Assembly (NCBI GenBank): GCA_016234115.1
Contig: JACRHD010000016.1
Location: 1 to 36,614 of the forward strand
Length of the DNA: 36,614 bases
Direction of reading: 5' to 3'
From: Nitrospirota bacterium
GTDB taxonomy: Bacteria; Nitrospirota; Thermodesulfovibrionia; UBA6902
Below, one piece after another: positions 8,311-24,753 of this stretch (within the stretch, counting starts at the first letter, position 1; each line of letters starts with the position of its first letter). The notes beneath the pieces are model-generated. The model did not search any database, was not told the origin of the DNA, and saw only the letters and a program-made list of their open reading frames with translations. A program made the translations under genes and the position numbers.

Positions 8311-9594
8311 TTATGAATCCGTGAAATTCCGGCTGATTGCATCAATATACCGTTTTGACAGTTTGTCGTTGACGTCATAGTTTTCTGCTATGTGCGTAAA
8401 TCCCCTTTTCCCCATATCGACTCTTGCTTCCGCTTTCATTGAAAGCAATTTTTTTAATGCCTTTGCGATTTCAGCAGGATTTTCAGGCTGAACAGTAATT
8501 CCCCCTCCGGAAATATCGACCAGGTTGTTCCTGACCTTTGCCGAAAACACTACAGGGAGACCGGCTGCCATATAGTCATATACTTTGTTCAGGTTGACGC
8601 CGTATCTGTATATGGGATTGTCGCGAAGGCATAAAAGGCCGACGTCAGCATGACTCAAGACATTGGGGATCGCCCTCCTGGGTATGGCAGGCCAGATTTT
8701 TACGGAACCCAGTTTATTGTCTGATACGGAACGGATTATATCCTTTTTTGAGTGTCCCTCTCCGACAATACAGAAAGATATGTTGTTCTCGCCTTCATCC
8801 CTTAATATTCTTGCCGCCTCGATGATGTAATCAACTCTGTTGCCGACTCCTATGCCGCCTGCGTAGACGGCAATCATCTTCCCCTTCTGTCTTTCCGCAT
8901 TCATACTGTTCAGGATTTCATCGACCCCGTCATATGCGGTATCACCCTTTGAAGCTTCTATGAATTCAGCCAGATTAATCCCATTGGGGACCCATTCGAT
9001 CTTTTGAGGCGTAATGCCTCTTTCACTGAGATAATCGCTTACGTAAGGCAACGCAGTTATGAAAACAGGCGTTCGCGAGTATAGATATTTTTCCAGCGCA
9101 AACAGCAGGACGACAAAAGGATGATACCTGTGGAAGGCCTTTCTTTCTATCCAGACTTGCGGCCATAAGTCGCGAATTTCCAGGACAAATGCGGCCTCAT
9201 ACTTCTTTGAGAGCCGGTATGCGGCCAATGCGGCAAAGGGACTCGGATATGAGGCAATTATAATATCGGGCGATGTCGCCACTTTGTCAGAGACAGTTCT
9301 TAAGGCGCAGGCAAAATACAGCATATTCAGAAACCGCCTGTGGTTGTTTTGATAGTAGAGGGGCCTTGTCTTCAAATATACTATTCTTAAATTATCTTCA
9401 CTGCTCAGGATGAAGGGTTCGCCGTTCGTTATCTTTTCAATCTTGCCCCAGTGGTTAAAGCTTGAGGTCAGAAAAGTCACTTCGTGTCCCATTCGCGCAA
9501 AGGCCTTTGCAAACTGGTACGATCTTTCGCTTCCGGGCATATCAGGCGTGCTTGCAAACTGATATACCACCCATATTTTCAGATTCTTTGCCAT
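8311..9594 (-). CDS. Glycosyltransferase, GT4 family (WbuB-like)
   Basis: This 427-residue GT-B fold transferase has an N-terminal acceptor domain with the GSERSYQFAKAFARMGHEVTFLTSS pattern in its early part, as in WbuB/WcaI-like fucosamine or amino-sugar transferases. The C-terminal donor domain contains IAVYAGGIG and the NKVYDYMAAGLPVVFSA nucleotide-sugar-binding segment. It would add one sugar to the lipid-linked repeat unit at the cytoplasmic face of the inner membrane. The stop codon is directly followed by the deacetylase ATG on the minus strand, so the two are one translational unit. Donor and acceptor sugars cannot be read. Confidence 0.9.
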   Translation of the reverse strand: MAKNLKIWVVYQFASTPDMPGSERSYQFAKAFARMGHEVTFLTSSFNHWGKIEKITNGEPFILSSEDNLRIVYLKTRPLYYQNNHRRFLNMLYFACALRTVSDKVATSPDIIIASYPSPFAALAAYRLSKKYEAAFVLEIRDLWPQVWIERKAFHRYHPFVVLLFALEKYLYSRTPVFITALPYVSDYLSERGITPQKIEWVPNGINLAEFIEASKGDTAYDGVDEILNSMNAERQKGKMIAVYAGGIGVGNRVDYIIEAARILRDEGENNISFCIVGEGHSKKDIIRSVSDNKLGSVKIWPAIPRRAIPNVLSHADVGLLCLRDNPIYRYGVNLNKVYDYMAAGLPVVFSAKVRNNLVDISGGGITVQPENPAEIAKALKKLLSMKAEARVDMGKRGFTHIAENYDVNDKLSKRYIDAISRNFTDS

Positions 9595-9615: not shown

Positions 9616-11286
9616 TTATGCGGAAAACTTCCGGATTACGTTTTTTATCATCCGGGACATCGTGTCATCGACTAAAAGACTGCCTCCGAACGTTATTGAG
9701 CCTACCGAAAAAACACTCCCGCCTCCGGGCTCCTGAAATAAAATGACTTCAGCTCCGCCGTCGCCGGAATTCATGCCCCTGGCCAGCAAGGTCAGATTTT
9801 TCGGCGAGCCGGGGAATATCTTGTCTGTTTCCCATCCGCTCGCGCCGGGTTCTTCCCTGGGTGAAACGTTCAGCCCTTTTCCGCCGATCAAGTCGCCGTT
9901 TTTTACGCCGGTATTGTCATAGACCCAATGATCGGACGCAAGGACTTTATAAGGGGCCCACGTAATATAACCCCTGAGATCATGCGCGACCCCGAGAACA
10001 GTCTCTTCATTAAAACCCTGATGCCTGAAATAGGCGCCGTCTAACACCATCAGGTCATCGCGGGGGAATGTCACTTCCTTGTACATGGTATTGCCTGAAA
10101 GAGAGATTACATTCCCCCCATTTTTAATAAATTCCTTCAGGTGTTCGATCATCCCGTATGACCAGTACTCATTGTGGGTGCTGATTATTATGATCCTGTA
10201 TTTGCTGAGGTACTCTTTGAATACGTCCGGTGAGTGAAGGTCCGTATCTGAATAAAGATCATACTCCAGTCCTTCCCGTTCCAGCCAGGACCACACAAAT
10301 CTTTCACCGACCAGTAAGTGGTCCCGCGTGACCCCGCAGGTATCTTCCACGCAGTTTCTGATGTACAGATCAAGCGGCCTTTGCGTTGAGAGGATGTATT
10401 TTGAAGGGAACGAGGTATAATTTATGTAGAAATTCTGCCCCCCCCAGCTATTATAAGCATGCCACGTATGAGTGGACGCGATTACGGCTAACTGTTTTTC
10501 CACCTTTGCCGGCTTGACAATTATCGGGACAAAAGAGCCGTCGTCGTCGCCGCCCGACAATTTGATCATGTAGCAGCCGCTGCGCGCCTCCTCAGGCACA
10601 CTGAATTTCATAGTCGGTTTCCATCCGCATCCCATGGATGAGGGGAATTTGGTTTTAATGCCCTGATAGGTCCCGGGTATATCATTCATGTCCTGAAGCT
10701 TCATCAATTTTTCGCCGACCCTTATGAATTCCATGGAATATGCGTCCGCTTTCGTACTGATCATTAGGTTCACGTCTTCCCCGGGGAATACGCTCAATTT
10801 GTCCGCGTAGCCGCATGTCTTCCCCAGGGTAGTCGGAATTTCAATACACTCACAGTGCAGAAGCCTTGGAGAAAACAGAATAGAAAGGGCAAGGAGGAAA
10901 TTGGCGTATTTTGGCCAGAAGCCGTTTACTCTGTGGCGAAGCGTGCATGTCATTCGGAATTTATCTTCTCCGACTATTATGTTGATCACGTCAAAGGGAT
11001 ACGCCCAAAACAAAAACCGCCCGTCCCTGTCTGGGGCCACCTCGTATGACCTGGGCAGGAGTTCGAATATCGGTTTCAGCCACAAGAGCGGCCTGACCCG
11101 ATATAGTTTCCGGTGAGTAATTTCAACTCTGACGGGAATGCTTCTGAGGTCTCTGTTTACTAATTTCCTGTATACCTGATGTTCAGGCACGAATGATTCG
11201 GCGTATAGAATTCTGCCGGTGGAGAATTTCGGGACCAGGACCAAAAAAACAAGTACGACTCCGGATATTAATACGGCAGTAAGCAT
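9616..11286 (-). CDS. N,N-dimethylformamidase beta-subunit-like membrane-anchored protein
   Basis: This 556-residue protein has an N-terminal membrane helix (about residues 2-19) and a second shorter hydrophobic stretch at about 128-140. Residues about 165-555 resemble the large-subunit domain of N,N-dimethylformamidase: STHTWHAYNSWGGQNFY at 271-287, a STHNEYWS motif at 369-376, and GGNVISLSGNT at 390-400. In the characterised enzyme, two Tyr and one Glu hold an iron atom. The Tyr residues of the first motif and the Glu of HNEYW are candidates here. A role in formamide or amide hydrolysis, or polysaccharide modification, in the periplasm is inference. The family is common and poorly characterised in EPS loci. 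Upstream lies an ATP-grasp gene 19 bases away. Confidence 0.72.
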   Translation of the reverse strand: MLTAVLISGVVLVFLVLVPKFSTGRILYAESFVPEHQVYRKLVNRDLRSIPVRVEITHRKLYRVRPLLWLKPIFELLPRSYEVAPDRDGRFLFWAYPFDVINIIVGEDKFRMTCTLRHRVNGFWPKYANFLLALSILFSPRLLHCECIEIPTTLGKTCGYADKLSVFPGEDVNLMISTKADAYSMEFIRVGEKLMKLQDMNDIPGTYQGIKTKFPSSMGCGWKPTMKFSVPEEARSGCYMIKLSGGDDDGSFVPIIVKPAKVEKQLAVIASTHTWHAYNSWGGQNFYINYTSFPSKYILSTQRPLDLYIRNCVEDTCGVTRDHLLVGERFVWSWLEREGLEYDLYSDTDLHSPDVFKEYLSKYRIIIISTHNEYWSYGMIEHLKEFIKNGGNVISLSGNTMYKEVTFPRDDLMVLDGAYFRHQGFNEETVLGVAHDLRGYITWAPYKVLASDHWVYDNTGVKNGDLIGGKGLNVSPREEPGASGWETDKIFPGSPKNLTLLARGMNSGDGGAEVILFQEPGGGSVFSVGSITFGGSLLVDDTMSRMIKNVIRKFSA

Positions 11287-11305: not shown

Positions 11306-12472
11306 TTAACCCGACCTGTTATACCTCAACTTTTTTTCATTTTCGTCCAGAAGCAAGATAATTTTGTGCAGCAGGTATCCTATAATCGCGCCCGGGTCTC
11401 GCGCGAAGCTTATTTCATATTCCAGGTCCCTGTCATAGAATTTGAAAAAACTGGGTCTTGCCTTAAACCGGTCTCTTGACTTCAGAAACCACATAATGTC
11501 CCCGGGCAGATACCGCAGATACTTGCCCACCTCGTAATTCCTGTCCTGGGGCACGTCCTCCCCGGCAGCCAGCCTGTACAGGTTATAGAAGAAATCCACC
11601 CCGGCAACGGGCCCTATCTTGATGCTCCTTGTGATTCTCGGGTTTATCTCCATCAATTTCGGAGTGTTGTCTCTCGGGTCCTCAATAAAGTCGCAGTCCC
11701 CCATCCCGTACCACTTCATGACCTTCAGCATCTTTTCCGCAATCGCCAGTATATCAGGGCGATCGACTGTGCAATTGAGGGTGCTTGAGCCGGCCTCGGG
11801 AGGGAAATACCTCGGCTTGTTATAGACTACCCAGGAGATTACGTCCTGCTGTTTGTTCATAAGGATTTCCGCCTTAAACTGCATGCCGCTATGCGGAATA
11901 AACTCCTGCACGATACATTTTCCATGCCTGGCTTCAACTGATGGAAGTCTGTCTTTCAGGGCGGCCTTGGAGTCGGCAAGAGTTATTCCCTTTGCCGCGG
12001 TGCCGAAGCGGGGCTTTATGAGGACCGGATATTTATCTATCTTATTTATCATATCCGGACCTTCTTCGGGAAAATATGTTCGGGGGCACGGAATATTGTT
12101 TTCCATCGCAATCTTCATGGTTTTTGCCTTGTCCAGCGCCTTACCGTATGTCGGAAAATCTACCAGGTACAGATTTACGATGGAGGCCAGTTCATCCTTG
12201 TGTTTTGAAAGCAATTGTGTAATTCTGCCTCCGATGGGAAGAACGAAATTCACTTTTTCAGCCTTAATAAAGCGACAAAGCCATTTGATGAAGGCCTCCT
12301 CGTGAAGGTCCGGAGACGGATAAAGGACCCTCTTGTGGGGATATCTTGAAAAGAAGGTTGTGCATATCCTTACATGGCAGCCCGCTATGACTTTAAATCC
12401 TCTCCTTCTGAATGTCTCGGACGCAATGAGACCGGGAGAATCTTCGACCCCTAATATCAATACTGTTTCCAT
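11306..12472 (-). CDS. ATP-grasp ligase
   Basis: This 388-residue ATP-grasp enzyme has a pre-ATP-grasp Rossmann-like domain starting METVLILGVEDSPGL, the flexible glycine-rich loop in LIKPRFGTAAKGI at 151-163, and the Mg-binding set Asp261, Glu275 and Asn277 in GDCDFIEDP ... LMEINPRI. ATP-grasp enzymes activate a carboxylate as acyl phosphate and join it to an amine or thiol. Members in polysaccharide loci can attach amino acids or other acids to amino sugars. With three FemAB/GNAT-like genes, a formyltransferase and AsnB-type enzymes nearby, amide decoration of the polymer is likely, but the substrate pair is unknown. The C-terminal 80 residues are outside the catalytic core and not recognised. 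Confidence 0.88.
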   Translation of the reverse strand: METVLILGVEDSPGLIASETFRRRGFKVIAGCHVRICTTFFSRYPHKRVLYPSPDLHEEAFIKWLCRFIKAEKVNFVLPIGGRITQLLSKHKDELASIVNLYLVDFPTYGKALDKAKTMKIAMENNIPCPRTYFPEEGPDMINKIDKYPVLIKPRFGTAAKGITLADSKAALKDRLPSVEARHGKCIVQEFIPHSGMQFKAEILMNKQQDVISWVVYNKPRYFPPEAGSSTLNCTVDRPDILAIAEKMLKVMKWYGMGDCDFIEDPRDNTPKLMEINPRITRSIKIGPVAGVDFFYNLYRLAAGEDVPQDRNYEVGKYLRYLPGDIMWFLKSRDRFKARPSFFKFYDRDLEYEISFARDPGAIIGYLLHKIILLLDENEKKLRYNRSG

Positions 12473-12488
12473 TACATTTTACTGATTG

Positions 12489-12587
12489 CCCGGATTATTC
12501 ATAAACTCCGGCAGGTATGATTCAAAAACATATTGGTGCAATCCCTCATCCGGAATCTTCGCGTTACGATATTTGTGAATAATCCGG
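12489..12587. repeat. Intergenic CCGGATTATT inverted-repeat element, long copy
   Basis: This 99-base element is bounded by a perfect 12-base inverted repeat, CCGGATTATTCA at 12490-12501 and TGAATAATCCGG at 12576-12587. It fills the gap between the ATP-grasp and deacetylase-fold genes. Its right 24 bases lie inside the 3' end of the latter and provide its last seven codons and stop. A shortened copy lies at 1835-1881 and a right-half copy at 13371-13402. It is the size of a small palindromic intergenic repeat or a MITE. Confidence 0.65.
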
Positions 12588-13352
12588 TTCAGGACGCGCG
12601 GGGCGCTGTAATGCGTCATTGAACGCCTCAAGGCCCGGGTCATTAATTATTGTCCAGGGAACGTTATTATCACTTGCCGCCGACAGAAGTCTTCTCATAT
12701 TGCCTTCAACCTGTTTGTCCGCGAAAAAATTCGCGGGATGTATTATGACAACGACATTATTCCTCTTCGCCTCTTCGACGACCTCCTGCGGGGTCAATTG
12801 CTCGTTGTCGCTGCGGCGCCTGTCAAGCCAGAACATGCCGGGATAGTATCCGTTTTCAGCCGATAAAGTAGCAGACCGCTTAACGAGCTCATTATTACCG
12901 AAATAAAAGGGGACACCCGTTATCTTTCCCCACTCTCTGTATTTATGGGGTTCATAATCAGGATAGTGATGCCTTCCCAGCTTCTGTTTACCGGACCCAT
13001 GTTTGTTAAAAGAACTGACCTTGACGGGAAATAAGTACGACTGAACAAGCTCAAGCTCTTTTTTGAAGGTTTCAAGGGTCCGGGTATCTTCGGCATGATA
13101 GCCTATCAGGTGTCCGTTTAACATCTCGCTGTTAATCCAGTCTCTCGGGGGGAGGGTGCATCGTCTGAAGTAAATATGCGCTTTAATATCCATATCGGCC
13201 AGAAAAACGAGAAATTTTCTTACATGCTCCAGATATCTTAAAGATGAAATTGCCGGCAGCCAGTAATCCTCGCGTATCTTGCTTAAAACCTTCTCCCTGA
13301 GGTTTGCCCGGCCGTACGGCTTATCGACATCTACGCGAAGAATCAGCGGCAT
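12564..13352 (-). CDS. Polysaccharide deacetylase-fold protein
   Basis: This 262-residue protein has the NodB-like pattern: LILRVDVDKPYGR at the N-terminus (Asp8, Asp10), an internal GHLIGYHAEDTRT segment with His86, and a late VVIIHPANFF strand with the usual Ile-His-Pro. The canonical metal-binding HxxxH pair appears incomplete: the position four residues after His86 is Thr, not His. Activity may therefore use a different ligand or be lost. No signal peptide is seen. The C-terminal residues PDYSQIS and the stop codon are encoded by the intergenic repeat element at 12489-12587, so the natural end of the protein has been replaced. It lies between the FemAB-like and ATP-grasp genes and probably acts on an acylated sugar precursor. 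Confidence 0.72.
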   Translation of the reverse strand: MPLILRVDVDKPYGRANLREKVLSKIREDYWLPAISSLRYLEHVRKFLVFLADMDIKAHIYFRRCTLPPRDWINSEMLNGHLIGYHAEDTRTLETFKKELELVQSYLFPVKVSSFNKHGSGKQKLGRHHYPDYEPHKYREWGKITGVPFYFGNNELVKRSATLSAENGYYPGMFWLDRRRSDNEQLTPQEVVEEAKRNNVVVIIHPANFFADKQVEGNMRRLLSAASDNNVPWTIINDPGLEAFNDALQRPARPEPDYSQIS

Positions 13353-13370
13353 GCTTCACTTAATTATTGA

Positions 13371-13402
13371 CCCGGAATACGGTATTTGCTGAATGATCCG
13401 AG
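13371..13402. repeat. Partial copy of the CCGGATTATT element
   Basis: The sequence CCCGGAAT followed by ACGGTATTTGCTGAATGATCCG aligns with the right part of the long element (CCGGAAT ... ACGATATTTGTGAATAATCCGG), with nine bases missing and a few changes. It lies in the short gap between the FemAB-like and deacetylase-fold genes. A weaker partial match (CCGGATTATT) lies in the next gap at 14438-14447. Confidence 0.5.
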
Positions 13403-13440
13403 TTAAATAAATCTCTCTTGATTCCGGAAGCCTTGTTCGG

Positions 13441-14406
13441 CTAAAACAGCGCCCTTTTATAAAACTTCAATAACAACTCGAGAGGCAATTTGGCCTTGCT
13501 GACCGTGTAATACGGCGTCAGTTTCCCCCCAAAACCCCTGAAATATTTCTCAACCGGCGGCAGCATTGAACCTTCGAAATCGAAGTGCAGTAATTCTTTC
13601 TTCCGGGCGTATCTTATCGCCTCCCACATGGACAACGTGCCGCCGCCGTGATGTTTATTGTCGTCATCATACCCGCCGAGCAGGTAATACGCGGTCTTGC
13701 TGTCATATATACAGAAGGAACACGCGATGGCTTTATCGTCTCTGAAAGTAACAAAGGCAAAGCTGTTGTCGTCGCCGGCAAAATCAAAGAGGATCTTATT
13801 CAGATAAAATTCGTTTACTTCTTTTTGCTGTCTCGAATAGGTCTTTAATACGAGAGAGCGGACCAGCTCCATATCAGTAACTCTTCTTACCGATAAATTG
13901 TCCCTTGTCCCCCTGGTTATATTTTTTCTTCGCTCATTCGACATATTGCTCCATAAGGTCTCGACCGGAGATGATAAATCCACTACATATGTATACTTGG
14001 GGGTTACCTTGAACTTCTTCCAGGAAAAAGGCTGCATATCGATAATGTCTTTGTTGAATGAAATAAGAATGATCGAATACGGCAACTCCTCGATGAATTC
14101 GGCCATCAGGGACAGAGACCTCTTCCACGTGTCCATTACGCTGACGGGATTGCTCGCCTCTATCTTGAGAAACGGCCCGATCTCAGGCGTAAACGGCGGG
14201 TTGCGGTATACGGACAAACAGGTCCTTTTCTCCATGTAGGTCGTAAATCCGCCGATGACGTATCCATTTTTGTCATATATGCCGTAACGCTGCGCATGCC
14301 GGTCAAAGATATTGGTCCATTTAATAGTGTTGAAGACAGAGCCGTACGACAGGGCCAATTCATCAAAATATGACTCATCCCCGTTTTTCAGTGCCAGTAT
14401 CTTCAT
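13441..14406 (-). CDS. FemAB/GNAT-family acyltransferase-like protein
   Basis: This 321-residue protein resembles the GNAT-fold half of FemAB-type aminoacyltransferases and BioF2-like acetyltransferases. An SNERRKNITRGTRDNLSVRRV segment at mid-protein, AFVTFRDDKAIACSFCIYD, and a GGGTLSMWEAIRYARKK ... HFDFEGSMLPPVEKYFRGFGG pattern are characteristic; the terminal (Y/F)-x-x-FGG is a family hallmark. Classical members move amino acids from tRNA to peptidoglycan precursors. Those in polysaccharide loci, including exosortase-associated ones, are thought to acylate sugars. It is followed by the deacetylase-fold gene. The donor is not visible. Confidence 0.8.
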   Translation of the reverse strand: MKILALKNGDESYFDELALSYGSVFNTIKWTNIFDRHAQRYGIYDKNGYVIGGFTTYMEKRTCLSVYRNPPFTPEIGPFLKIEASNPVSVMDTWKRSLSLMAEFIEELPYSIILISFNKDIIDMQPFSWKKFKVTPKYTYVVDLSSPVETLWSNMSNERRKNITRGTRDNLSVRRVTDMELVRSLVLKTYSRQQKEVNEFYLNKILFDFAGDDNSFAFVTFRDDKAIACSFCIYDSKTAYYLLGGYDDDNKHHGGGTLSMWEAIRYARKKELLHFDFEGSMLPPVEKYFRGFGGKLTPYYTVSKAKLPLELLLKFYKRALF

Positions 14407-14497
14407 TATCAGCTCAAGAAAACAGTATTACGCTATTCCGGATTATTTGCGGCAACCATTCCGTATTCAGGGCCCGAAGGGGAGACCAAGGGGACCA

Positions 14498-15670
14498 TCA
14501 GCGCCCGAGGAGTCCTTCATAAACGTTCAGCAAACGTTCTTCCATCGCGTCCCAGTTCCACATCTCGCGCACGGCCTTTCTCCCGGATTCAGACATGCGT
14601 CTCCACTCATCTTCATCTTTCAGTATGTCGATTATCCCCTGGGCGAGCGCCTCGGCGCTGGCGGGGTCAAAGACCTTCCCGCAACCCGCGGCCTTGACGT
14701 AGTTTGCGACCGGCGGCAAATCGGAGCCTAAAACCGGAACACCGCATGCCATATATTCAAACTGCTTGATCGGCACATTCTTGCGCCACTTCCTGATCGG
14801 CAGATTGGCTATCAGCCCGACCCTGGAGATCGATATGTAATTTACTACGTCCCTGTGCGGGACCCAGCCGACTACTTCTATGCCGTCTTCGACATTTCTT
14901 CTTCTTATTTCTTCATCGATCTTCAGCCTTGTATTGCCGTCCGCGCGACCGAGCAGCAATAGCAGGACCTCGGGATTCGATTTCCTGATTATTTCCATTG
15001 CCCTGATCATCAGGAAAAGCCCCTTATTCTCATTGAAGCCGCCGTTGTATATAATAGGTATCCGGTCCTTATATTTTCTCCCCAGTTCACTTACCTTCTT
15101 CTCATCTGAAACGAAGAGAGATAACCGCGGATAGTTGAATATTGTCGTTACCTTGCTTCTGACGTTGTTGAACTGGGAGGCAATGTCATTATCGGTAGTG
15201 ATGACATGGTCCGTCAATACGGCGAGCAGTTTCTGGCTGAGGCCGGCAACGACCGCCAGAAACGGACGCATCAGGCGCGGAATCTTCAGCGAGTCCAGGA
15301 TCATTTCAGGATAAACTTCGTGAACATCATAAATAATTTTCGATCTTGTCAGCAGTCGAAGCAGCGGCAGCGCGAATATCAACTCGAAATCATGAAAATG
15401 ACACACCCGGGGCTGATATTTAATCATGGTAACAATCGCCTCAGGCACAACTGAAAGTCTCGACAAAATAGAGCCTGACCGCTTCAGCGGAAAGAACTTT
15501 ATTTCTCCTTCATTACATTTATAATCAGGGGGCGCGGTCCCCTGGGCCACGACGGAGACAGAACCGTATTTTTTTAACAGGCTTATGACCTCCTTGTAAT
15601 ATATCCTGTCGTCAAGGTGGTTATGTCCCGTGCTCAGCATACAAATTTGTGTCGTGAACGCGCCCATCAA
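14498..15670 (-). CDS. Glycosyltransferase, GT4 family
   Basis: This 390-residue GT-B transferase contains RSKIIYDVHEVYPEMI in the first domain and IPIIYNGGFNENKGLFLMIRA at the start of the donor domain. VPIKQFEYMACGVPVLGSDLPP near residue 310 is the usual nucleotide-sugar loop. The DVHEVYPE motif is common in GT4 enzymes of surface polysaccharide loci. The gene overlaps the next upstream glycosyltransferase by four bases, so the two transferases are likely made together and add adjacent sugars. Specificity cannot be deduced. Confidence 0.88.
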   Translation of the reverse strand: MMGAFTTQICMLSTGHNHLDDRIYYKEVISLLKKYGSVSVVAQGTAPPDYKCNEGEIKFFPLKRSGSILSRLSVVPEAIVTMIKYQPRVCHFHDFELIFALPLLRLLTRSKIIYDVHEVYPEMILDSLKIPRLMRPFLAVVAGLSQKLLAVLTDHVITTDNDIASQFNNVRSKVTTIFNYPRLSLFVSDEKKVSELGRKYKDRIPIIYNGGFNENKGLFLMIRAMEIIRKSNPEVLLLLLGRADGNTRLKIDEEIRRRNVEDGIEVVGWVPHRDVVNYISISRVGLIANLPIRKWRKNVPIKQFEYMACGVPVLGSDLPPVANYVKAAGCGKVFDPASAEALAQGIIDILKDEDEWRRMSESGRKAVREMWNWDAMEERLLNVYEGLLGR

Positions 15671-16938
15671 TTTAATTTGCCGCTGATCATCATGTTGCCT
15701 GGCGATGGGCTTCCGGCATGCCGGAGGGAATTATAAATCCCGATCATTTCTGCGGCATTATATTGCCATGAAAACCCGGTCATGACGACCTTCCGTCCGC
15801 GCTCGCCCATTGTCCGGGCCAGATCACTGTTTGCGGCAAGACAGGCAATCGCCCCGCTTAACGAACTTATGTCCTTTGAATCGATCAGCAGCCCTGTTTC
15901 TCCATCGGCAACAGCCTCCGGAATGCCTCCCACTCTTGCGGCTATCACGGGCAGCCCGCACGCCATTGCCTCCAGCACGGCATTGGGGAGTCCTTCATAA
16001 TGAGAGGGAAGGACGAATATATCAGAGGCGCTTAACCATTTTGAAATGTCCGAATGCGGCTGGTTGCCCGGCAGATGCACCCTTTTCTCCATGCCTCCGG
16101 CGTAAATCTCTTTTTGAATGACTGATTGCCCCGGACCGCTCCCCAGGATAATCGCGTGCAGGGAGGGTCGCCGGGGGACCAGCCTCTTCAAGGCGGCCGT
16201 CAATTCAAAAACACCCTTGTTCTTCTTGAGCTCGCCGACAAAAATAATGACGACATCATTGCCGGAGATCCCCAGCTTTTCCCTGTAACGGGTCCGGGCG
16301 TCCGCATCCCTGAAAAAAAGCTCCGGATCACATCCGTTATGGATGGTCCTGATCGCCTTTTTAGGCGACCCTATCTTTTCAGCGGCCTCCTTCAGGGCGT
16401 TGCTGACACTGACGAGCTGATCAGCCGAGGATATGACTTTCCTGGAACACATCATGGTAATCCTGTCGTAGTGGGGATAAACATTGACATCGCTGCCCCG
16501 CATGCTGCACACCAGCGGTATCCCGTATTTTCTGCTGAACATAAGGGCGACATAACCCGACGATGTGACCGCATGCGCATGAATGACGTGGGGCCTGAAA
16601 TTCCTGATGATCTGATCGACATTATTCCTGATGCCGCAATAAATGCTCCAGCACAGGACCCTGCGATACCATTTCCCGGGGAGATTGACGTAACGCGGGT
16701 AATAAGTTTGTATGTCATCAATAAGATCGGAATGAGGGACATCCATGTAGCTTCGCCATTTATCGTTAAACCGCAAGAGCCCGGATGAGAGGGGGACGGG
16801 AGAGACCACCCTGACATTACACCCCGCCTCCCTGATATGCCTTGTCTGGTTATGAATGAAAATTCCCTTCTGCGGACACATCCTGTTGGGGTACATATGC
16901 GATAAAACCAGTACTCTGACTCTTTCATGTTTATTCAT
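15667..16938 (-). CDS. Glycosyltransferase, GT4 family
   Basis: This 423-residue GT-B retaining glycosyltransferase has an N-terminal VLVLSHMYPNRMCPQKGIFIHNQ opening typical of exopolysaccharide transferases, with HVIHAHAV in the acceptor domain. The donor-domain E-x7-E motif is complete in the segment beginning EGLPNAVLEAMACGLPVI. It should add a sugar to the growing lipid-linked unit. A 125-base gap containing short inverted repeats precedes it, the largest gap within the polysaccharide locus, so an internal promoter there is possible although no clear boxes are visible. No strong ribosome site precedes the ATG. Confidence 0.9.
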   Translation of the reverse strand: MNKHERVRVLVLSHMYPNRMCPQKGIFIHNQTRHIREAGCNVRVVSPVPLSSGLLRFNDKWRSYMDVPHSDLIDDIQTYYPRYVNLPGKWYRRVLCWSIYCGIRNNVDQIIRNFRPHVIHAHAVTSSGYVALMFSRKYGIPLVCSMRGSDVNVYPHYDRITMMCSRKVISSADQLVSVSNALKEAAEKIGSPKKAIRTIHNGCDPELFFRDADARTRYREKLGISGNDVVIIFVGELKKNKGVFELTAALKRLVPRRPSLHAIILGSGPGQSVIQKEIYAGGMEKRVHLPGNQPHSDISKWLSASDIFVLPSHYEGLPNAVLEAMACGLPVIAARVGGIPEAVADGETGLLIDSKDISSLSGAIACLAANSDLARTMGERGRKVVMTGFSWQYNAAEMIGIYNSLRHAGSPSPGNMMISGKLN

Positions 16939-17063
16939 GATATTACAAGAGCCGTATCTTCATGTTTTACGATCATTATTGTTTCTCCGGATTCGGAATC
17001 GAAACCGGAAAGTTCATCTCATGATTAAATCCGATGAGAAGATTTTGCATTGTATGAGTCCGG

Positions 17064-17930
17064 CTATTTCTTAAACTGTGCCAAGCAGGAGATTACATGT
17101 TTCTTGAAAAATCCGAGGTGTTTTCTCTCAATAATCGTTTTCACATAAGGGATGATATTAAAATTATATTTGGCATATACCGGCAAGTCCTCTCTGGCAA
17201 AGCCGAATTTATTTTTGAATTCATTTAGTGAAGGGCGATCCGTACTCCATGCCCCATAGGACACCTGCCTGCATTCCGGCAGCTCCCTGCAACAATCTAT
17301 AATTGAATATGTCAGGGCGTCATTCGGACATTTGTCAAGGTGGTCTGTATGACTCGCAGCGTAATTGATTATCATTGTGTCATTGATCTGAAAGACCTTC
17401 ATATAAGCAATCAACAGCCCTTTATAGAAAGACCCCCAATATTCTTTCTTCCCCTTGTCTCCGTTGAACTGCTTAATTGTCCAGGCGCTCCATTTATCGC
17501 GGTATTTCGTATAGTACTCAGGAGGTTTTCCACGTCCTGTACGAACAGCTTTGGAGATTTCTATTTCTCTGATGTCATCCAAAACAGGCCCGATATCTTC
17601 TATTTTTCTTATAAGGGTCAACTTCAATCCTTTTTTCACCTGGGCCCTCTTGGATGATGACAGACTCAAGAGTGAGTAATTTCTTAACTGCTCCTCATTC
17701 AATAACGCAATGGATTGGTATTTATTTGCATATTGTTTATCGCGGACAAGGTGGCTGTATCCAAGTATTGCCTTGTATAATTTAGGCGTTACTTTTCCCG
17801 GCTCAAGCATTTGCATTGGAACGACCGGTTTATAAAAGAACGGATCAGACTTTATCCACCAGACTCCGTCATTCAGATGAACATCATAACCGATGGTATG
17901 GACCCGCTCAATAAATTCTTCAGAAGTCAT
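17064..17930 (-). CDS. FemAB/GNAT-like protein, copy 2 of tandem pair
   Basis: This 288-residue protein is clearly homologous to the next upstream product (17946-18776). Shared motifs include MTSEE at the start, FYKPV, GYSH-V-D-YAN, PPEYY, CPNDAL and ECRQVS-G-W, ending with FKNKFGF. The second half looks like the GNAT-fold half of FemAB-type transferases, but no named family is certain. No signal peptide or membrane helix is visible, so a cytoplasmic role on precursor sugars is expected. Divergence between the copies is substantial, which suggests separate substrates rather than redundancy. The region is visibly more A/T rich than the genes around 26-33 kb. Confidence 0.6.
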   Translation of the reverse strand: MTSEEFIERVHTIGYDVHLNDGVWWIKSDPFFYKPVVPMQMLEPGKVTPKLYKAILGYSHLVRDKQYANKYQSIALLNEEQLRNYSLLSLSSSKRAQVKKGLKLTLIRKIEDIGPVLDDIREIEISKAVRTGRGKPPEYYTKYRDKWSAWTIKQFNGDKGKKEYWGSFYKGLLIAYMKVFQINDTMIINYAASHTDHLDKCPNDALTYSIIDCCRELPECRQVSYGAWSTDRPSLNEFKNKFGFAREDLPVYAKYNFNIIPYVKTIIERKHLGFFKKHVISCLAQFKK

Positions 17931-17945
17931 TATCGGATTCTCGCG

Positions 17946-18776
17946 TCATGCCTTGCTTAAGCTCATTGACGATACTTTTAAGCTCAATAATCTCTTCACA
18001 AATATTATAAAAGGACTGTATTTCGCGTATGCCGGGAAATCGACCCGTTCAAATCCGAATTGTTCTTTAAATTTATTGATTGAATACTTGGATGCGTTCC
18101 AAGGACCTGCGCTGACTTGTCTGCATTCTGAATTGTCTTTGCAATAATTCAGGACCGCATACATGAGGGCATCATTAGGACATTTGTCAAGAAAATCAGT
18201 GCGACTTTTAGTAGCGCGGAAGTGCATAGTATCATCAATTAAAACCGCATATCGGTATGCAATCAACGATCCATTATGAAATACTCCCCACCATTCTCTG
18301 TTCGGTAAACTAAACTCTTTTATCATAAATGATTTCCATTCCCCATATTTCTCAGAATAATACTCCGGCGGCCGCCCGTTATGAGAACGCGATGACATGG
18401 ATATGCATATTTTCTGAATGTCCTTGATTACGCGCTCAATGTCATCAATCCTTCTTACTTCGTTCAATGCAAGTCCCTTCCTGATCCTAGTTCTTTTATT
18501 TTTCGAGAGACCGGGAAGAGAGAATTTATTCAACGCTTCTTCATTTAAGATCATCATAGGCCGCACATCATTAGCATATTTTTGATCACTGACAAAGTGA
18601 CTATATCCAAATAAAGATTTTATCCTGATCGGTCTTGCCGCCCCGGGATTAAAACTTTCAAAAAAATTAACAGGCTTATAAAAGAGAGGGAAATTTTCCT
18701 GCCACCAGATATTATCGTGCATGTGAATTCCATATCCTGCGGAGATTTGCTGCCTTATGTATTCTTCACTTGTCAT
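17946..18776 (-). CDS. FemAB/GNAT-like protein, copy 1 of tandem pair
   Basis: This 276-residue paralogue of the following gene shares the MTSEE start, a WW pair near residue 25, FYKPV, GYSHFV-D-KYAN, the basic SKNKRTRIRKGL segment, GRPPEYY, CPNDALMYAVL and ECRQVSAGPW. The basic segment sits where FemAB-type proteins have their (S/K)-K-x-R-R-x-I-R-K-(G/A) helix, supporting the assignment to that superfamily. It follows the adenylating enzyme gene by only 17 bases, and the next copy follows by 15, so the three are one unit. One model is that the adenylating enzyme activates an acid that these proteins transfer. That is inference. Confidence 0.6.
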   Translation of the reverse strand: MTSEEYIRQQISAGYGIHMHDNIWWQENFPLFYKPVNFFESFNPGAARPIRIKSLFGYSHFVSDQKYANDVRPMMILNEEALNKFSLPGLSKNKRTRIRKGLALNEVRRIDDIERVIKDIQKICISMSSRSHNGRPPEYYSEKYGEWKSFMIKEFSLPNREWWGVFHNGSLIAYRYAVLIDDTMHFRATKSRTDFLDKCPNDALMYAVLNYCKDNSECRQVSAGPWNASKYSINKFKEQFGFERVDFPAYAKYSPFIIFVKRLLSLKVSSMSLSKA

Positions 18777-18793
18777 CGACTGGATGGTTTTTA

Positions 18794-20152
18794 TTAAAAA
18801 TAGGTAGGTAAATGAGATATAATCAACCGGGTCTTGCCCCTGGCAGTCAAGGGTATATGATCACACTCTTCGACAATCACATTGACTTTGTTCCCGATTT
18901 TTTCTTTTATTACCCGGACCATTGCCTCCGAATCCCTGGGAGAATAAAAGTTATTCTTTACAATCTTCAGCGTAATGTTATGGAAGCCGGTCTGAATAAT
19001 CTGATATTGTTCGATACCCTGCAACCTGTTAAAATTATATAAAAATGAGATCATGGGAACATGTTTTCCATCCGGGGTCTTTAAAAACTCTTGCGATCTG
19101 CCGTCCAGACTTTTCAATATGCGCAGCCCTCTTTTGCAATTACACTCTCCGGATGCCAGCGTTCCAGCATCGTCCACCTGATATCGAATGAACGGCATAG
19201 CATAATTATCCAGATCAGTCAGTATTATATTGCCGGATGTATCAACAACATCAGACCCGTTGGAATTAACGGTTTCAAGAATGACGTGCTCCTCAGTTAT
19301 GTGTTTATTGTGATATTCACACTCATATGCCATAGATCCTATTTCATTACATCCATAGTAATCATACACCGTACCCTTAAAGGAACTTTCCAAAAGGGTC
19401 CGTTGATGGCTATGGAGCATTTCGCCGTATGAAAAAATTACGGGAATTCGAAATCCGTTCATATTATATTTTTCAATCAGCCCGGCATTCCGGCATAAAC
19501 TGGAGGCGAGACCGGACAAACAGAAGGGGTCGAGTGATTTAATTTCATTTAAATATTTTGATAGCTGTTCTTTCTTGGCCAGGGCATAATAAAAATATAA
19601 TTTAATCAGTCGTGACCGCATTTTCCCCAATATACTAATCCTGTTCATGTCGTAATAAGAGAAATTAATTACGGTATCTCCGATATTGTATCCGGCCCAC
19701 GCCCAGCCTCTTAATAATGCCGCTTCCTGCCACATCATGGTATTTTTATCCCGAAACAAGGTAAGCGGTTCGCCGGTGCTGCCGCCCGTCTTGAATTTTC
19801 TTAAATTACGCCTGTTGGCCCCTTTAGAAATTATTTTGGGGAAATTGGTTCTAATTATTTCTTTTGATAGAATCGGGAAACCTTTAAGGTCGTCTATGGT
19901 GCGTATATCGTCCGGTACGATCCCCTTGCTTCTCATCATATCCTCGTAATATGGGACGTTATGATAAACATGTTTAATCAGCTTTCCCAATTTGATGTTC
20001 TGATAGTCTATTAGCCGCTCTCGTGAAGACCACTGCAACTTGTTGAGATGTTTCAATGTCCTGAGGATTTTTATCCCGTGTGTCGTCCCGTATCGCATCT
20101 GGTACACGGGATACAAAACTTCTTCGAAGAGCATATTTTTTAATTTCTTCAT
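18794..20152 (-). CDS. PaaK/CapK-type adenylate-forming enzyme
   Basis: This 452-residue member of the phenylacetate-CoA ligase-like branch of the ANL superfamily has the phosphate-binding loop KTGGSTGEPL at 121-130, a YYGCNEIG-type adenine motif in mid-protein, and LTDLDNYAMPFIRYQVDDAG as the ribose-binding aspartate region. The N-terminal part (LIKHVYHNVPYYEDMMRSKGI) is characteristic of CapK homologues in capsule loci. Such enzymes activate a carboxylic acid with ATP, for transfer to CoA or directly to an acceptor. Here the product may feed the FemAB-like pair just downstream. The substrate acid is not visible. Confidence 0.88.
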   Translation of the reverse strand: MKKLKNMLFEEVLYPVYQMRYGTTHGIKILRTLKHLNKLQWSSRERLIDYQNIKLGKLIKHVYHNVPYYEDMMRSKGIVPDDIRTIDDLKGFPILSKEIIRTNFPKIISKGANRRNLRKFKTGGSTGEPLTLFRDKNTMMWQEAALLRGWAWAGYNIGDTVINFSYYDMNRISILGKMRSRLIKLYFYYALAKKEQLSKYLNEIKSLDPFCLSGLASSLCRNAGLIEKYNMNGFRIPVIFSYGEMLHSHQRTLLESSFKGTVYDYYGCNEIGSMAYECEYHNKHITEEHVILETVNSNGSDVVDTSGNIILTDLDNYAMPFIRYQVDDAGTLASGECNCKRGLRILKSLDGRSQEFLKTPDGKHVPMISFLYNFNRLQGIEQYQIIQTGFHNITLKIVKNNFYSPRDSEAMVRVIKEKIGNKVNVIVEECDHIPLTARGKTRLIISHLPTYF

Positions 20153-20160: not shown

Positions 20161-21618
20161 TTACCGGTCCTCAGAATAGCGGCGAATTCTCAACAATTCT
20201 TTATCGACAGTCCGAAATTTCGACAGCTTCGGTCGATGCATATCCTTTCCGGACAAGCTTCCCCACTTGAGCATAAGAACGGACAATGAATAATATATCC
20301 ATAAATGGCATTTCAATATAACGCTCGTACCAAGTCCTGAAGAAAGTAACGCAATATAACCCGCCTGTAAAATAATAATAAAATTAAACCAGTATTTGTC
20401 GCGGTTGAAAGAAAAGCTACGGGCCGCGCCATTCATGTTTGCAATTACGCGAAAAAATATCATCAGCAGTATAATGGTGCCGACCAGACCGATACTTGCA
20501 AATACTTTTGAAACAATATCGTGTCCGCCCAATCCTCCTAAGATCAACCCGAATTTCCCATCATCCGTGTCGAAATATTTAAAGTTATCAAACCCTATCC
20601 CTACGAGAGGGTGTTCGATCAGGGCATGGATTCCCTTGAGGAATATGAAGTATCTCAGGTCCTCCGTTAAATCCCTACTTGCCCTTGCTTCAATATTATC
20701 GATCAGGAAATTTGACAGGAGTAATGCCAGGAGAATGAATAATAATGACATCATAAGAAGCTTTTTTACATTAATTATTCTGTGTTTCAAACCTAATGCA
20801 ATATAGGTGATTGCAAAAATGACAAAGACTATAAGCCACGTACGGGACACAGATAGGCCAATTGAATAAAATGCTGCGATGAATAACACTGAGAAAAGTA
20901 ATTTAACCAGGTGACTCCGGGCATTTAAAGAGATAAAAAGTATGAACGGAATTCCGAACATCGCCGTCTTACCGAGCGAATTCGGATTACTGTAAAATCC
21001 GCCTATTCGTCTTACGCCGCCGTAAGCATTAATACTGCCGTGGGCAAAATAGTCCCCAATGGAAAAGAGGGCCACGGTTCCGATGCTCAGAGCTATTGTA
21101 GTAATAAATATTTTTAATTTTCTTTCGTTGTCTATGACATCCTGCATAATAAAAAAAGACATGAATATGTAAGTGGTTATTTCAATGCTTACAGCAAGAC
21201 TGGGCAGGGGCTTATAGGCAAAGATGGATGAAATGCACATTGAGATAATAAACAGCATGATTGTCCTGTTGCTTCTGGCCAGATGAAAGAATTCGGATTT
21301 TCCCTGCAGAAAATATCTTAAAAACCACCCTGCCGCCAAGATAGCAAAGACCAGACGGCCGCCGGAATTCACTAACGGCAATTCAACGAGATCAGCAAAC
21401 GGGGAATAAGCTACAATAAGGAGAAAGCCCCAAAAAGGATATAAAATTGTAATAACGGATAGCGCCAGAACGGATACAAGAAATATCAGGACTTGCAAAG
21501 TGAGAGTGATATCCGTAAAGAAATATTTTGTCATTAAAATTATTATCAGGGAGACTGCAATTGCAATCACGAGCGGCAATTTACCATTTGTTACTATGTC
21601 CTCAACATGTATTCTCAT
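20161..21618 (-). CDS. O-antigen ligase/polymerase-family membrane protein
   Basis: This 485-residue, highly hydrophobic protein has roughly a dozen predicted membrane helices and a large loop in the second half containing ALIEHPLVGIGFDNF. That segment is characteristic of the Wzy_C/WaaL family (O-antigen polymerase or ligase). Such proteins either join repeat units on the periplasmic side or transfer the finished chain to an acceptor. Topology alone cannot separate the two. It is the only polymerase/ligase candidate in the window. The gene lies eight bases before the adenylating enzyme gene. No flippase is visible nearby. Confidence 0.88.
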   Translation of the reverse strand: MRIHVEDIVTNGKLPLVIAIAVSLIIILMTKYFFTDITLTLQVLIFLVSVLALSVITILYPFWGFLLIVAYSPFADLVELPLVNSGGRLVFAILAAGWFLRYFLQGKSEFFHLARSNRTIMLFIISMCISSIFAYKPLPSLAVSIEITTYIFMSFFIMQDVIDNERKLKIFITTIALSIGTVALFSIGDYFAHGSINAYGGVRRIGGFYSNPNSLGKTAMFGIPFILFISLNARSHLVKLLFSVLFIAAFYSIGLSVSRTWLIVFVIFAITYIALGLKHRIINVKKLLMMSLLFILLALLLSNFLIDNIEARASRDLTEDLRYFIFLKGIHALIEHPLVGIGFDNFKYFDTDDGKFGLILGGLGGHDIVSKVFASIGLVGTIILLMIFFRVIANMNGAARSFSFNRDKYWFNFIIILQAGYIALLSSGLGTSVILKCHLWIYYSLSVLMLKWGSLSGKDMHRPKLSKFRTVDKELLRIRRYSEDR

Positions 21619-21666: not shown

Positions 21667-22956
21667 TTAATCTTTATGAAAGCACTCGTCAAGAACTTCA
21701 GAATATCTTTGCGCGATTGATTTATATGAATATTTATAAATGTCTGAGTTCTCATTAAACTTGACCTGTCCGCATCTGCAGAACTCTTCGTAATATCCTA
21801 AAAGGACCCTTTTCAGGGCATCTCTGTTCTCCACAAACGTCCCGCAACCGGTCTCCTCCAGCAGGTCCTTGATAATACTGCGTTTCCCTCCAAGCGCAAT
21901 GATCGGACGTTGGGCGCCGAAGTACTCAAAAACCTTCGCCGGATAAACGTCCTGCTCCGCGCCATTACTGTCAAGGAGAAGCAATAACAAGTGCGATTCT
22001 CTTTGTTTGTCCAATGCCTCAACGCGCGGGATAAAATCATAATAATTTACAACACCACTGAGCCCATATTTCTCCGTCTTGTTCACAACCTGCTCTTCTT
22101 TCCTCGTAAAGAACCTGATTTCTATCATGTCCTTATTCACCTTTTTCTCAACAATAAGCTGTTTGACCGCGCCGAACAATACAGAAGGGTCCCTTTTCCC
22201 TCCGGCAAGAGTTCCGGTATATGTGATTGTGAACTTGTCTGCCTGCCTGACCGGGACATCAGGAAAATCATCTGCGTCGTATCCGTTCGTTATACAGGTT
22301 ATTTTTTTCATTTCATGGAGTTCTTGCATTGTATCAACAAACTCAGGGGTAGTCGTTACAATGATATCGGCGCCGTGCAGAGTTTTTAATTCCAGTTTTC
22401 TATCAAAGTACTTAATGAATTTATATTTATTATAGAACTGGTTGGTAGTCCAAGGGTCTCTTAAGTCCGCTACCCAGGGGATGTTATGCTTTTTTTTTAA
22501 TTTCCCGGCTATTAAATGAGAAGTAACAGGGGGTGATGTGCTCATGACTACGTCAACCTTTTCTCTCTCGACATATTCAGAGGCCTTTTTAAGCGCGAAC
22601 TTATACCATCCTTTTTGTCTGTCAGGGAAGTATAATATTTCTTTTAATAACTTGGTCGTTGACGATTTAACGGCAATGCCCGCAGGATCGTCGGCAGATT
22701 TCATTTTCAGATTATTATCTCTTCGCAATAAATGTCCACTGCTTATTTTAATTGCGGCTATCATATCCCTTTTGCCTGCTGCTAATATGTTGGTGCCATG
22801 TGGTCTCGCCCCGTCCCGTGTAACGGTGAGTACCACAGGTTCCCACCCAAACGACGGGATATACTTCGAAAGTTTATATGGTCTAAGTGAGCCTACCGCA
22901 GGGCTGGGGGGAAATGCATAAGCAATAATTAAGACCTTCTTCATTTGTTTAACCAT
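21667..22956 (-). CDS. Glycosyltransferase, GT4-like (WbuB/FkpM type)
   Basis: This 429-residue GT-B-like transferase opens with VLIIAYAFPPSPAVGSLR, a typical acceptor-domain motif of this subgroup. DVVMSTSPPVTSHLIA and WVADLRDPW follow in the first domain, and FTITYTGTLAGGKRDP and PAKVFEYFGAQRPIIALGG in the donor domain. The Asp-Leu-Arg-Asp-Pro-Trp motif is common in the sugar transferases of environmental EPS loci. The first Met could be replaced by the internal Met five codons later, which leads directly into the first beta strand; neither has a clear ribosome site. It likely adds one sugar at the cytoplasmic membrane face. Confidence 0.87.
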   Translation of the reverse strand: MVKQMKKVLIIAYAFPPSPAVGSLRPYKLSKYIPSFGWEPVVLTVTRDGARPHGTNILAAGKRDMIAAIKISSGHLLRRDNNLKMKSADDPAGIAVKSSTTKLLKEILYFPDRQKGWYKFALKKASEYVEREKVDVVMSTSPPVTSHLIAGKLKKKHNIPWVADLRDPWTTNQFYNKYKFIKYFDRKLELKTLHGADIIVTTTPEFVDTMQELHEMKKITCITNGYDADDFPDVPVRQADKFTITYTGTLAGGKRDPSVLFGAVKQLIVEKKVNKDMIEIRFFTRKEEQVVNKTEKYGLSGVVNYYDFIPRVEALDKQRESHLLLLLLDSNGAEQDVYPAKVFEYFGAQRPIIALGGKRSIIKDLLEETGCGTFVENRDALKRVLLGYYEEFCRCGQVKFNENSDIYKYSYKSIAQRYSEVLDECFHKD

Positions 22957-22993: not shown

Positions 22994-23911
22994 TCATCTC
23001 CTGGACTGTCCCCAAATAAACAATCTCATTCTTTCTATATTGCGGAAAATCTCAATCAAAATGCTTATATAAATAATGGATAGTTTCTGTCGAATTCCAT
23101 TTACGGACTTATCAGGAAACAGATTAAAAGAGGTCCCGATTATCCGGGCAACAATAGTTTTAAAACTATGGGCAAGATTTTTTATTAATTCACTGGTTGA
23201 ATAAGCGTACTTGCCATATTTATCATGCTTCCCCCCCACAAGCCTTGCTGTTCTTCTGTATAATTGAACAATAGAATGCCGCGCCGGATGGGCAACACAA
23301 ACATCATCAGCATACACCTGTACATAGCCGCCGACATATACTCGGAGACCCCATTCATTGTCACCGCCGGATTTCATTTCGCAATTAAATAACCCTACCC
23401 TGTTAAAAACCTCTTTGTAAGTGAAAACGTTTGCAGTAGCCCCATACCTGTGTCTCTCGATATTCTCTTTCTGCCTGAAAATCATTTTGCTTTCATACAG
23501 CTCCACCGCATTCGGTTGATCTGGTTTTTGAAAAAACAGGTTTATTCTTCCGGCGATTAAGCCACAGCCCGGGATATCCTGCATCCTGGCAACGCCTTTC
23601 TCAAGCCAGTCGGCATGCGGAATACAATCGGCGTCGGTGAATGCCAATATTTCCCCCTTTGCATTGATGACGCCCCTGTTTCTGGCGGCATAAGAACTCC
23701 GGATTCCGTCTTCCCTTAACATAACAACCGGATGCCTTTCGACTACCTCGCGCGTATTGTCCGTGGAGCCGTTATCGACGATTATTATCTCGGTCCTGTC
23801 CCCCGGATATGTCTGGCTCATCAACGCGCCGATGCATTTCCCGATGCGGCCCGCATCATTATATACAGGCACTATTACCGAAACTAACGGGTGTTTTCCC
23901 GGCCCGGTCAT
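22994..23911 (-). CDS. Glycosyltransferase, GT2 family
   Basis: This 305-residue inverting GT-A transferase has VSVIVPVYNDAGRIGKC at the N-terminus, a nucleotide-binding VDNGSTDNTREVV, and the metal-binding DxD in AFTDADCIPH. A GGDNEWGLRV segment sits in the acceptor half. The C-terminus carries a hydrophobic stretch (SIIYISILIEIF) that could be a membrane contact. It would transfer a sugar to a lipid-linked acceptor. It overlaps the sulfotransferase gene by four bases and ends the tightly packed block of seven genes from 30960 downward. Confidence 0.9.
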   Translation of the reverse strand: MTGPGKHPLVSVIVPVYNDAGRIGKCIGALMSQTYPGDRTEIIIVDNGSTDNTREVVERHPVVMLREDGIRSSYAARNRGVINAKGEILAFTDADCIPHADWLEKGVARMQDIPGCGLIAGRINLFFQKPDQPNAVELYESKMIFRQKENIERHRYGATANVFTYKEVFNRVGLFNCEMKSGGDNEWGLRVYVGGYVQVYADDVCVAHPARHSIVQLYRRTARLVGGKHDKYGKYAYSTSELIKNLAHSFKTIVARIIGTSFNLFPDKSVNGIRQKLSIIYISILIEIFRNIERMRLFIWGQSRR

Positions 23912-24753
23912 CGTTTCCCGCCGAACCGCTCCAGGGCATATTGATAAATTTCAAGATCAGGCCTGCATATTTCCCTGATACCGGCCTCTTCCTCTTCGGT
24001 TATAATGGACGCCCTATCTGCTTCATTGACCGGGTTTCTGTTCTTATTGCCGATTTTTAACCTAACGCCGAAACACCTCTCGAACCGCTCCGCAAATACA
24101 TCAAGAGATTCCAGGAACCCCACGACCGCAAATTTGCCCAGGTTTTCCCTGGCCCTGCCGATCGACTCCGGCGAGGTATAGTCCCTCGCCTCGTTGACGC
24201 CTCCCAGAAATTTCACGTATTCATGCCCCTGGGACCGTCCGAATTGTGAATTCAAAAATCCCGCAAGGTCGACATTCATTTTGCAATGCTCATCTGTCTT
24301 GTATTTATTAAAGAAATATAATGAACGGAACCTCTTTACAGGGTCCCGCAGTACGGTAATGAATTTGTACGTATCGCCGAACCTTCTGTAACCGGCATCG
24401 CTGAAGGCGAAATGTCCGGAGATGAATTTGACGCCCTGCTGACTCATGAAATACAGCAGGAGTCCTTCACGCAGCTCCTGGATGTGCTTATCATCAGAGA
24501 AATCATGAGGAAAGTTGAGCCCGCGCACAAGGTTGGCCGCGCCCGCGGACGCCCCCGAACTCAGACGGACCAGGCCGTCTGAGTTGTTTGCAGACGGAGT
24601 ATGATAACGTGATCTTATTGCCCGGGCTATCGACGTCCCGCCGCATTTAGGTATGTGGAGGAAGAATATTTTTTCCCGCAGGCAACCGTAAATACGCTTC
24701 TGAATTCCCGAGCGGAGAGATTTTATAACGCATTTATACATGTTGAATTCCAT
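23908..24753 (-). CDS. Sulfotransferase family protein (Sulfotransfer_2-type)
   Basis: This roughly 281-residue sulfotransferase has the 5'-phosphosulfate loop FFLHIPKCGGTSIARA near its N-terminus, the ISGHFAF motif, and the 3'-phosphate motif VLRDPVKRFRSLYFF. This is the pattern of the heparan/chondroitin-type and bacterial polysaccharide sulfotransferases that use PAPS. I chose the ATG at 24753, with GGAAG eight bases upstream, over a GTG at 24768 with no ribosome site. It overlaps the preceding glycosyltransferase gene by 20 bases. It probably sulfates a sugar hydroxyl of the polymer or its precursor. No PAPS synthesis genes are visible in the window. Confidence 0.85.
   Translation of the reverse strand: MEFNMYKCVIKSLRSGIQKRIYGCLREKIFFLHIPKCGGTSIARAIRSRYHTPSANNSDGLVRLSSGASAGAANLVRGLNFPHDFSDDKHIQELREGLLLYFMSQQGVKFISGHFAFSDAGYRRFGDTYKFITVLRDPVKRFRSLYFFNKYKTDEHCKMNVDLAGFLNSQFGRSQGHEYVKFLGGVNEARDYTSPESIGRARENLGKFAVVGFLESLDVFAERFERCFGVRLKIGNKNRNPVNEADRASIITEEEEAGIREICRPDLEIYQYALERFGGKR

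Follow-up and report, generated by a model that had tools for sequence, protein, structure and literature searches.

The window analysed here, the whole of a 36,614-nucleotide contig (C67) of a Nitrospirota genome of 3.5 Mb in 69 contigs, probably carries a Wzy-type exopolysaccharide locus, a variant of the XrtA/PEP-CTERM exopolysaccharide loci, whose glycan would bear amide-linked amino acids on amino sugars. As judged from sequence families and predicted structures, this is the best reading because FemA1, a transferase resembling VimA, is encoded beside a deacetylase-like gene, and because FemA3, another transferase, has its best structural matches among aminoacyl-tRNA-dependent enzymes. The original prediction had proposed an aminoacylated or otherwise amide-decorated glycan, and this part is upheld by these two findings together with a WbpS-like AsnB and a conserved core gene order. 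All genes of the locus lie on the minus strand, and its central part reads as follows:

7408..8310, minus strand: polysaccharide deacetylase of the XrtA-locus type (TIGR03006, 268.1 bits against a cut-off of 276.2)
8311..9594, minus strand: GT4 glycosyltransferase, conserved core member (53-57% identity in G134, G027 and G003)
9616..11286, minus strand: dimethylformamidase-like amidohydrolase (PF20254, 214 bits) with a hydrophobic N-terminal segment, a probable membrane anchor
11306..12472, minus strand: ATP-grasp carboxylate-amine ligase (PF02655, ATP-grasp_3, 40.5 bits, above cut-off; NCBIfam PRK12767-type matches)
12564..13352, minus strand: deacetylase-like protein beside FemA1, assigned by CE4-like motifs (RVDVD, YHAED, IHPANF) and a low-confidence model
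13441..14406, minus strand: FemA1, VimA-like aminoacyltransferase of the FemAB/GNAT fold (PF13480, Acetyltransf_6, and PF02388, FemAB, above cut-off)
14498..15670, minus strand: GT4 glycosyltransferase, core member (49-52% in three sister loci)
15667..16938, minus strand: GT4 glycosyltransferase, core member (54% in G027, 37% in G134, 26% in G147)
17064..17930, minus strand: FemA2, FemAB-fold transferase of an unnamed family (45% to FemA3; 51-52% in G134 and G027)
17946..18776, minus strand: FemA3, FemAB-fold transferase, tandem relative of FemA2 (predicted structure and fold search)
18794..20152, minus strand: PaaK/CapK-type acyl-activating enzyme (related to solved phenylacetate-CoA ligases, E 2e-23)
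20161..21618, minus strand: Wzy-type polymerase / O-antigen ligase family (PF04932 above cut-off)

The ATP-grasp ligase, the three FemAB/GNAT-like proteins and the PaaK/CapK enzyme that had been predicted in 11306-20152 are all confirmed by profiles, motifs and the fold match of FemA3. FemA1 shares 31% identity (E 2e-35) with the VimA orthologue of Parabacteroides, which was identified by position, the order bcp-recA-GNAT-deacetylase corresponding to that of the bcp-recA-vimA-vimE operon (PMC3663753). The active-region motif FDFEGSM..E..FR.FG is alike in the two proteins, and the patterns FD(F/L)EGSM and E(R/K)(F/Y)(F/L)R.FG are common to the orthologue and to 11 of 11 aligned FemA1 proteins. 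Against the TIGR03019 model, FemA1 scores 23.5 bits (cut-off 260). A deacetylase-like gene follows FemA1 immediately in the 11 loci in which both genes were fully read; at this position other loci carry a different deacetylase-like family, which matches the g06 deacetylase profile at 95%. The 12564..13352 protein has no significant similarity to the Parabacteroides protein in the VimE position. A relative of FemA1 on a Cupriavidus megaplasmid lies outside any polysaccharide locus.

FemA2 and FemA3 have no family library match above cut-off, and a PDB sequence search with their profile found no match. The FemA3 model, built from six sequences (mean predicted local distance difference test (pLDDT) 76, predicted template modelling score 0.72), has as its top PDB matches Sba18 (9wqy) and Sbb17 (9wqx), followed by FemX and MprF. 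Sba18 and Sbb17, peptide synthases that depend on aminoacyl-tRNA, were crystallised in complex with streptothrisamine, an amino sugar; identity to the FemA3 model in this structural match is about 11%. The FemX-like Orf11 of the BD-12 pathway converts streptothrisamine to glycylthricin with Gly-tRNA (PMC12945691). The lysine of an (F/Y)K motif is retained in all six FemA2/FemA3 relatives, and is tentatively equated with Lys305 of FemX by motif, not by structural superposition. Within the class, three further genomes have high-scoring relatives of FemA3, two of these genomes belonging to other families, and none of nine genomes of the same genus has one; a plasmid search gave no match, and a scan of contigs for FemA2/FemA3 returned four loci, three of them in genomes already found. 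The named relatives of FemA3 are Thermodesulfovibrionales or 'Nitrospirae' metagenome bins and one short 'Flavobacteriales' contig. On contig L017 (1-4188), which is binned as Flavobacteriales, FemA2, an AsnB-like gene and a GT4 gene resemble the Nitrospirota loci, as mis-binning or transfer might produce. A recent tandem duplication giving FemA2 and FemA3 was rejected, FemA3 pairing instead with a G147 protein (tree support 89/94, just under the strict threshold).

Several observations weigh against the proposed reading of the locus. The Lys of FemA2/FemA3 and of the TIGR03019 proteins is replaced by Arg in both FemA1 and the VimA orthologue, which makes the use of aminoacyl-tRNA less certain for FemA1. 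The 12564..13352 protein has no family match in library scans, and the best match of its poor model (pLDDT 48), a peptidoglycan deacetylase (E 9e-5), is suggestive only. The contig has no exosortase, both of those in the genome being on other contigs, and no recognised flippase. Finally, GNAT folds serve acyl-CoA enzymes as well. We regard it as unlikely that the locus performs an ordinary acyl decoration, in which PaaK would make acyl-CoA and the GNAT/FemAB-like proteins would transfer acetyl, hydroxybutanoyl or similar groups and no amino acids. PaaK stands immediately before FemA2/FemA3 in four of the four loci with both sides read, acyl-CoA is common among GNAT folds, and CoA-using GNATs such as Eis2 do appear lower in the FemA3 fold search; the best matches in that search are nevertheless aminoacyl-tRNA enzymes, there is genetic evidence for amino-acid transfer by VimA, and G003 has PaaK without any FemA2. 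The last point also weakens the idea of a fixed PaaK-FemA2 pair. PaaK itself has the adenylation motifs TGGSTGEP, YGCNE and DLDN; it lies between Wzy and FemA2 in G147 and G027, and adjoins FemA2 in G134.

The sister loci argue for a coherent core. The order Wzy, PaaK, FemAB, two glycosyltransferases, VimA-like FemAB and deacetylase, mostly followed by the amidase and a further glycosyltransferase, is kept in four other Nitrospirota genomes, G027, G134, G147 and G003, the last belonging to the same genus and having the cassette without FemA2. PaaK, FemA2, the two glycosyltransferases and FemA1 are in the same order in G147, G134 and G027, then the deacetylase-like gene, except that in G134 the first glycosyltransferase is just before PaaK. 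G027 and G134 go on with the amidase, a GT4 gene and a TIGR03006-type deacetylase; G147 does not go on in this way. A second group is formed by the loci of G175, G176, G139, G093 and G069, with AsnB in place of PaaK-FemA2 and a deacetylase-like gene of another family after FemA1; the FemA1-deacetylase pair is kept in G149 and G221 too.

Some positions inside this core vary. The slot separating the amidase from the deacetylase-like gene is occupied by the ATP-grasp gene in the window and by a FemAB that scores over the TIGR03019 cut-off in both G027 and G003, and it is empty in G134; an ATP-grasp-like gene of G134 (24% identity) comes after the next glycosyltransferase. The slot after FemA2 holds a second FemA in the window, an AsnB-like gene in L017, and a threonine-synthase-like enzyme with a split AsnB-like pair in G134. 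This G134 enzyme (L011, 1345-2694), a pyridoxal phosphate enzyme, might provide the glycan with an amino acid. The ATP-grasp and AsnB genes make up the variable part, while the close relatives consistently keep PaaK and FemA1 with its neighbouring deacetylase-like gene. That the enzymes are independent insertions with unrelated functions and no common product is very improbable: sister loci do not, it is true, have AsnB, the AsnB-like protein, the ATP-grasp gene and the sulfotransferases in corresponding positions, but the series from PaaK and FemA2 through FemA1 and the deacetylase-like gene to the amidase is retained across families f1 and f17, and most of it in f18. The comparison of gene content in related loci thus speaks against insertion for the core only, not for AsnB and ATP-grasp. 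The core also includes Wzy and conserved glycosyltransferases, and the other product that had been envisaged, a small molecule built on the glycan, finds no support here.

What is new in this locus is the unnamed FemA2/FemA3 FemAB-fold family, the exchangeable slots (ATP-grasp or TIGR03019 FemAB) and the conserved amidase-like protein. As a tentative and rather doubtful extension, FemA2/FemA3 might be an undescribed aminoacyl-tRNA-dependent family that aminoacylates the sugars of Nitrospirota exopolysaccharides, in a cassette where amide-forming enzymes (ATP-grasp, TIGR03019 FemAB, AsnB-like and, in one case, a threonine-synthase-like supplier) replace one another at set positions and the result is edited by an exported amidase. 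If this were true, the cassette would represent a modular diversification, free of nonribosomal peptide synthetase (NRPS), of amino-acid-bearing surface glycans.

The amidase is the best-conserved cassette gene where present (64-66% identity in G027, G134 and G003). Its profile aligns with an N-acyl-beta-phenylalanine acylase and with N,N-dimethylformamidase (DMFase). Of the three iron ligands of DMFase, two have counterparts in it (Y278 for Y399, E373 for E521) and the third (Y440) is not aligned; these positions were counted from the printed alignment, and the N-terminal hydrophobicity was read by eye. The remaining genes of the polysaccharide locus are the following:

4412..4999, minus strand: initiating sugar-phosphate transferase, PglC/WcaJ-like catalytic domain (TIGR03025, 226 bits, C-terminal half of the model, below cut-off)
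5354..6601, minus strand: PseC-like aminotransferase for a 4-amino sugar (TIGR03588, 418.7 bits against a cut-off of 423.5)
6629..7411, minus strand: formyltransferase, probably N-formylating an amino sugar (PF00551 above cut-off; NVHASRLP motif)
21667..22956, minus strand: GT4 glycosyltransferase (42-45% relatives in group B loci)
22994..23911, minus strand: GT2 glycosyltransferase (PF00535)
23908..24768, minus strand: sulfotransferase (PF03567 above cut-off)
25987..27864, minus strand: AsnB/WbpS-like glutamine amidotransferase (PF00733 and GATase above cut-off)
27870..29033, minus strand: putative PP-loop protein of the AsnB synthetase type without a glutaminase domain (GG(R/K)DS motif, here GGRDS)
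29030..29959, minus strand: sulfotransferase (PF17784 above cut-off)

A formyltransferase and two AsnB-type proteins had been expected near the cassette. The first is found at 6629-7411, and G027 has a PF00551 protein at the same place. The AsnB at 25987-27864 has Cys2 and SGGIDS intact; TIGR03108 is its best model by E-value (392 bits against a cut-off of 817), and the general asparagine synthase model is passed. The open reading frame list extends it over 25987-28002; its true start is 27864, marked by MCGIAG, and there is therefore no overlap with the preceding gene. The second candidate, at 27870..29033, is weaker: it has one motif and a weak profile match (58%, hhalign) to the AsnB synthetase domain, and no Pfam, NCBIfam or PDB match. 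The prediction that no NRPS module takes part agrees with the Pfam and NCBIfam matches, which contain no carrier or condensation domain among the scanned proteins of the window (the GT4 proteins were not scanned). The GT4 protein at 21667..22956 is the best window match of the glycosyltransferase in the VimF position. The two sulfotransferases (23908-24768 and 29030-29959) belong to different Pfam families, which suggests that the polymer may be sulfated too. A protein of the 23S rRNA-intervening-sequence type (four-helix bundle) is encoded inside the operon at 4999-5406, overlapping the aminotransferase gene, and has a relative near the same place in G027 (L013:8035-8463). The 29956-30960 protein, between a sulfotransferase and a GT2 gene, has only a sub-threshold GH43 match. 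At 440-1076, on the strand opposite the operon, a pair of AbrB-like and PIN-domain-like reading frames, read by eye, resembles a toxin-antitoxin module.

For the aminoacylated glycan, the conservation of gene order, the relations to known families, the motifs and the fold match of FemA3 are observations, whereas we infer the dependence on tRNA, every substrate, the succession of steps and the product. The deacetylase-like proteins (12564-13352 and 7408-8310) would free sugar amines, onto which FemA1 and FemA2/FemA3 would move an aminoacyl group, most likely from aminoacyl-tRNA. AsnB might convert a uronic acid to a uronamide, as WbpS does, and the ATP-grasp ligase, standing where sister loci have a TIGR03019 FemAB, might form another amide from a carboxylate. 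PaaK could activate a separate acid for acylation, the formyltransferase could act on the PseC-type 4-amino sugar, and the dimethylformamidase-like protein might trim amides outside the cytoplasm. The enzymes of the locus need not act on one substituent.

The amino acid might alternatively be carried by a linking sugar that anchors C-terminally sorted surface proteins, like the anionic lipopolysaccharide of the type IX secretion system (T9SS), and not by a decorated polymer. The VimA-like protein adjoins a deacetylase-like gene, a CFI-box-CTERM protein with choice-of-anchor domains is encoded at 33288-35123 beside the polysaccharide operon, exosortase A occurs elsewhere in the genome, and the same idea has been put forward for VimA-related proteins (PMC7468200). 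However, the contig has no sortase, some genomes with FemA1 loci have no detected exosortase (G093, G139, G027, G147), and Wbp genes were not recognised in the window, which makes a linking sugar quite improbable.

The concentration of these enzymes, which had been thought unusual among sugar modifications, is not exceptional, since it recurs on contig C53 of the same genome and in psc1 of Rubrivivax gelatinosus. Four of the genome's 21 matches to PF13480, PaaK, PF00733 and PF02655 fall within the window, 1% of the genome, which is more than expected by chance (binomial 6e-5, a figure that treats matches as independent, general clustering of polysaccharide genes alone making such a count likelier); for any 36.6 kb stretch the value is 0.02. 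Equally dense stretches lie at 64-84 kb of C53 and 64-91 kb of C4. A stretch of C53 lying 16-36 kb away from exosortase A (221.5 bits, cut-off 208) carries a TIGR03019 FemAB, a TIGR03006 deacetylase, AsnB, PaaK and a second FemAB, the first two being adjacent and both over cut-off; this comparison was made on individual genome stretches. psc1 combines three asparagine synthases with FemAB, CapK, Wzy and a deacetylase (PMC3684757), and an earlier study had remarked that genes related to VimA neighbour those for deacetylases and asparagine synthases in loci of this type (PMC7468200). VimA-related proteins of exopolysaccharide loci have been proposed to make amino-acid-modified sugars (PMC7468200); in the literature we found no report of such a product outside T9SS bacteria, and nothing useful on O-antigen or capsule loci that combine FemAB with ATP-grasp. 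The conserved cassette, with its three FemAB-fold proteins, deacetylase-like gene and amidase, provides defined candidates for tRNA-derived aminoacylation of exopolysaccharides, and also a way into the role of PaaK/CapK in such loci.

Among known systems, XrtA/PEP-CTERM loci such as psc1 likewise bring together FemAB, a TIGR03006-type deacetylase (in the window just below the model's cut-off), CapK, asparagine synthase, Wzy and a sugar transferase, whereas the window has no exosortase on its contig and an ATP-grasp gene in the TIGR03019 FemAB slot. The amidase shares the PF20254 domain and the two aligned iron ligands with the DMFase and N-acetyl-(R)-beta-phenylalanine acylase family, but differs by its hydrophobic N-terminal segment and polysaccharide setting. 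With the aminoacyl-tRNA-dependent FemABX transferases acting on amino sugars (Orf11, Sba18, Sbb17), the FemA3 model shares the fold and, as far as the motif shows, the (F/Y)K lysine, at the identity of about 11% given above. In the Wbp/Vim pathway of Porphyromonas gingivalis and Tannerella forsythia, VimA is credited with adding serine or glycine to the linking sugar; in P. gingivalis, replacing vimA with the T. forsythia gene puts another amino acid on this sugar, and deleting wbpS removes the uronamide (PMC7468200). The window differs in its additional FemA2/FemA3, PaaK and ATP-grasp, in a deacetylase-like gene not recognisable as VimE by sequence, and in that no T9SS was seen; none of the WbpA/B/D/E set (diacetamido uronic acid) was recognised among its annotated genes, the rest of the genome not being searched. 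Yet it has, as that pathway does, a VimA-like transferase adjoining a deacetylase-like gene, as vimA adjoins vimE, and, in the wider cluster, an amidotransferase that may be of the WbpS kind.

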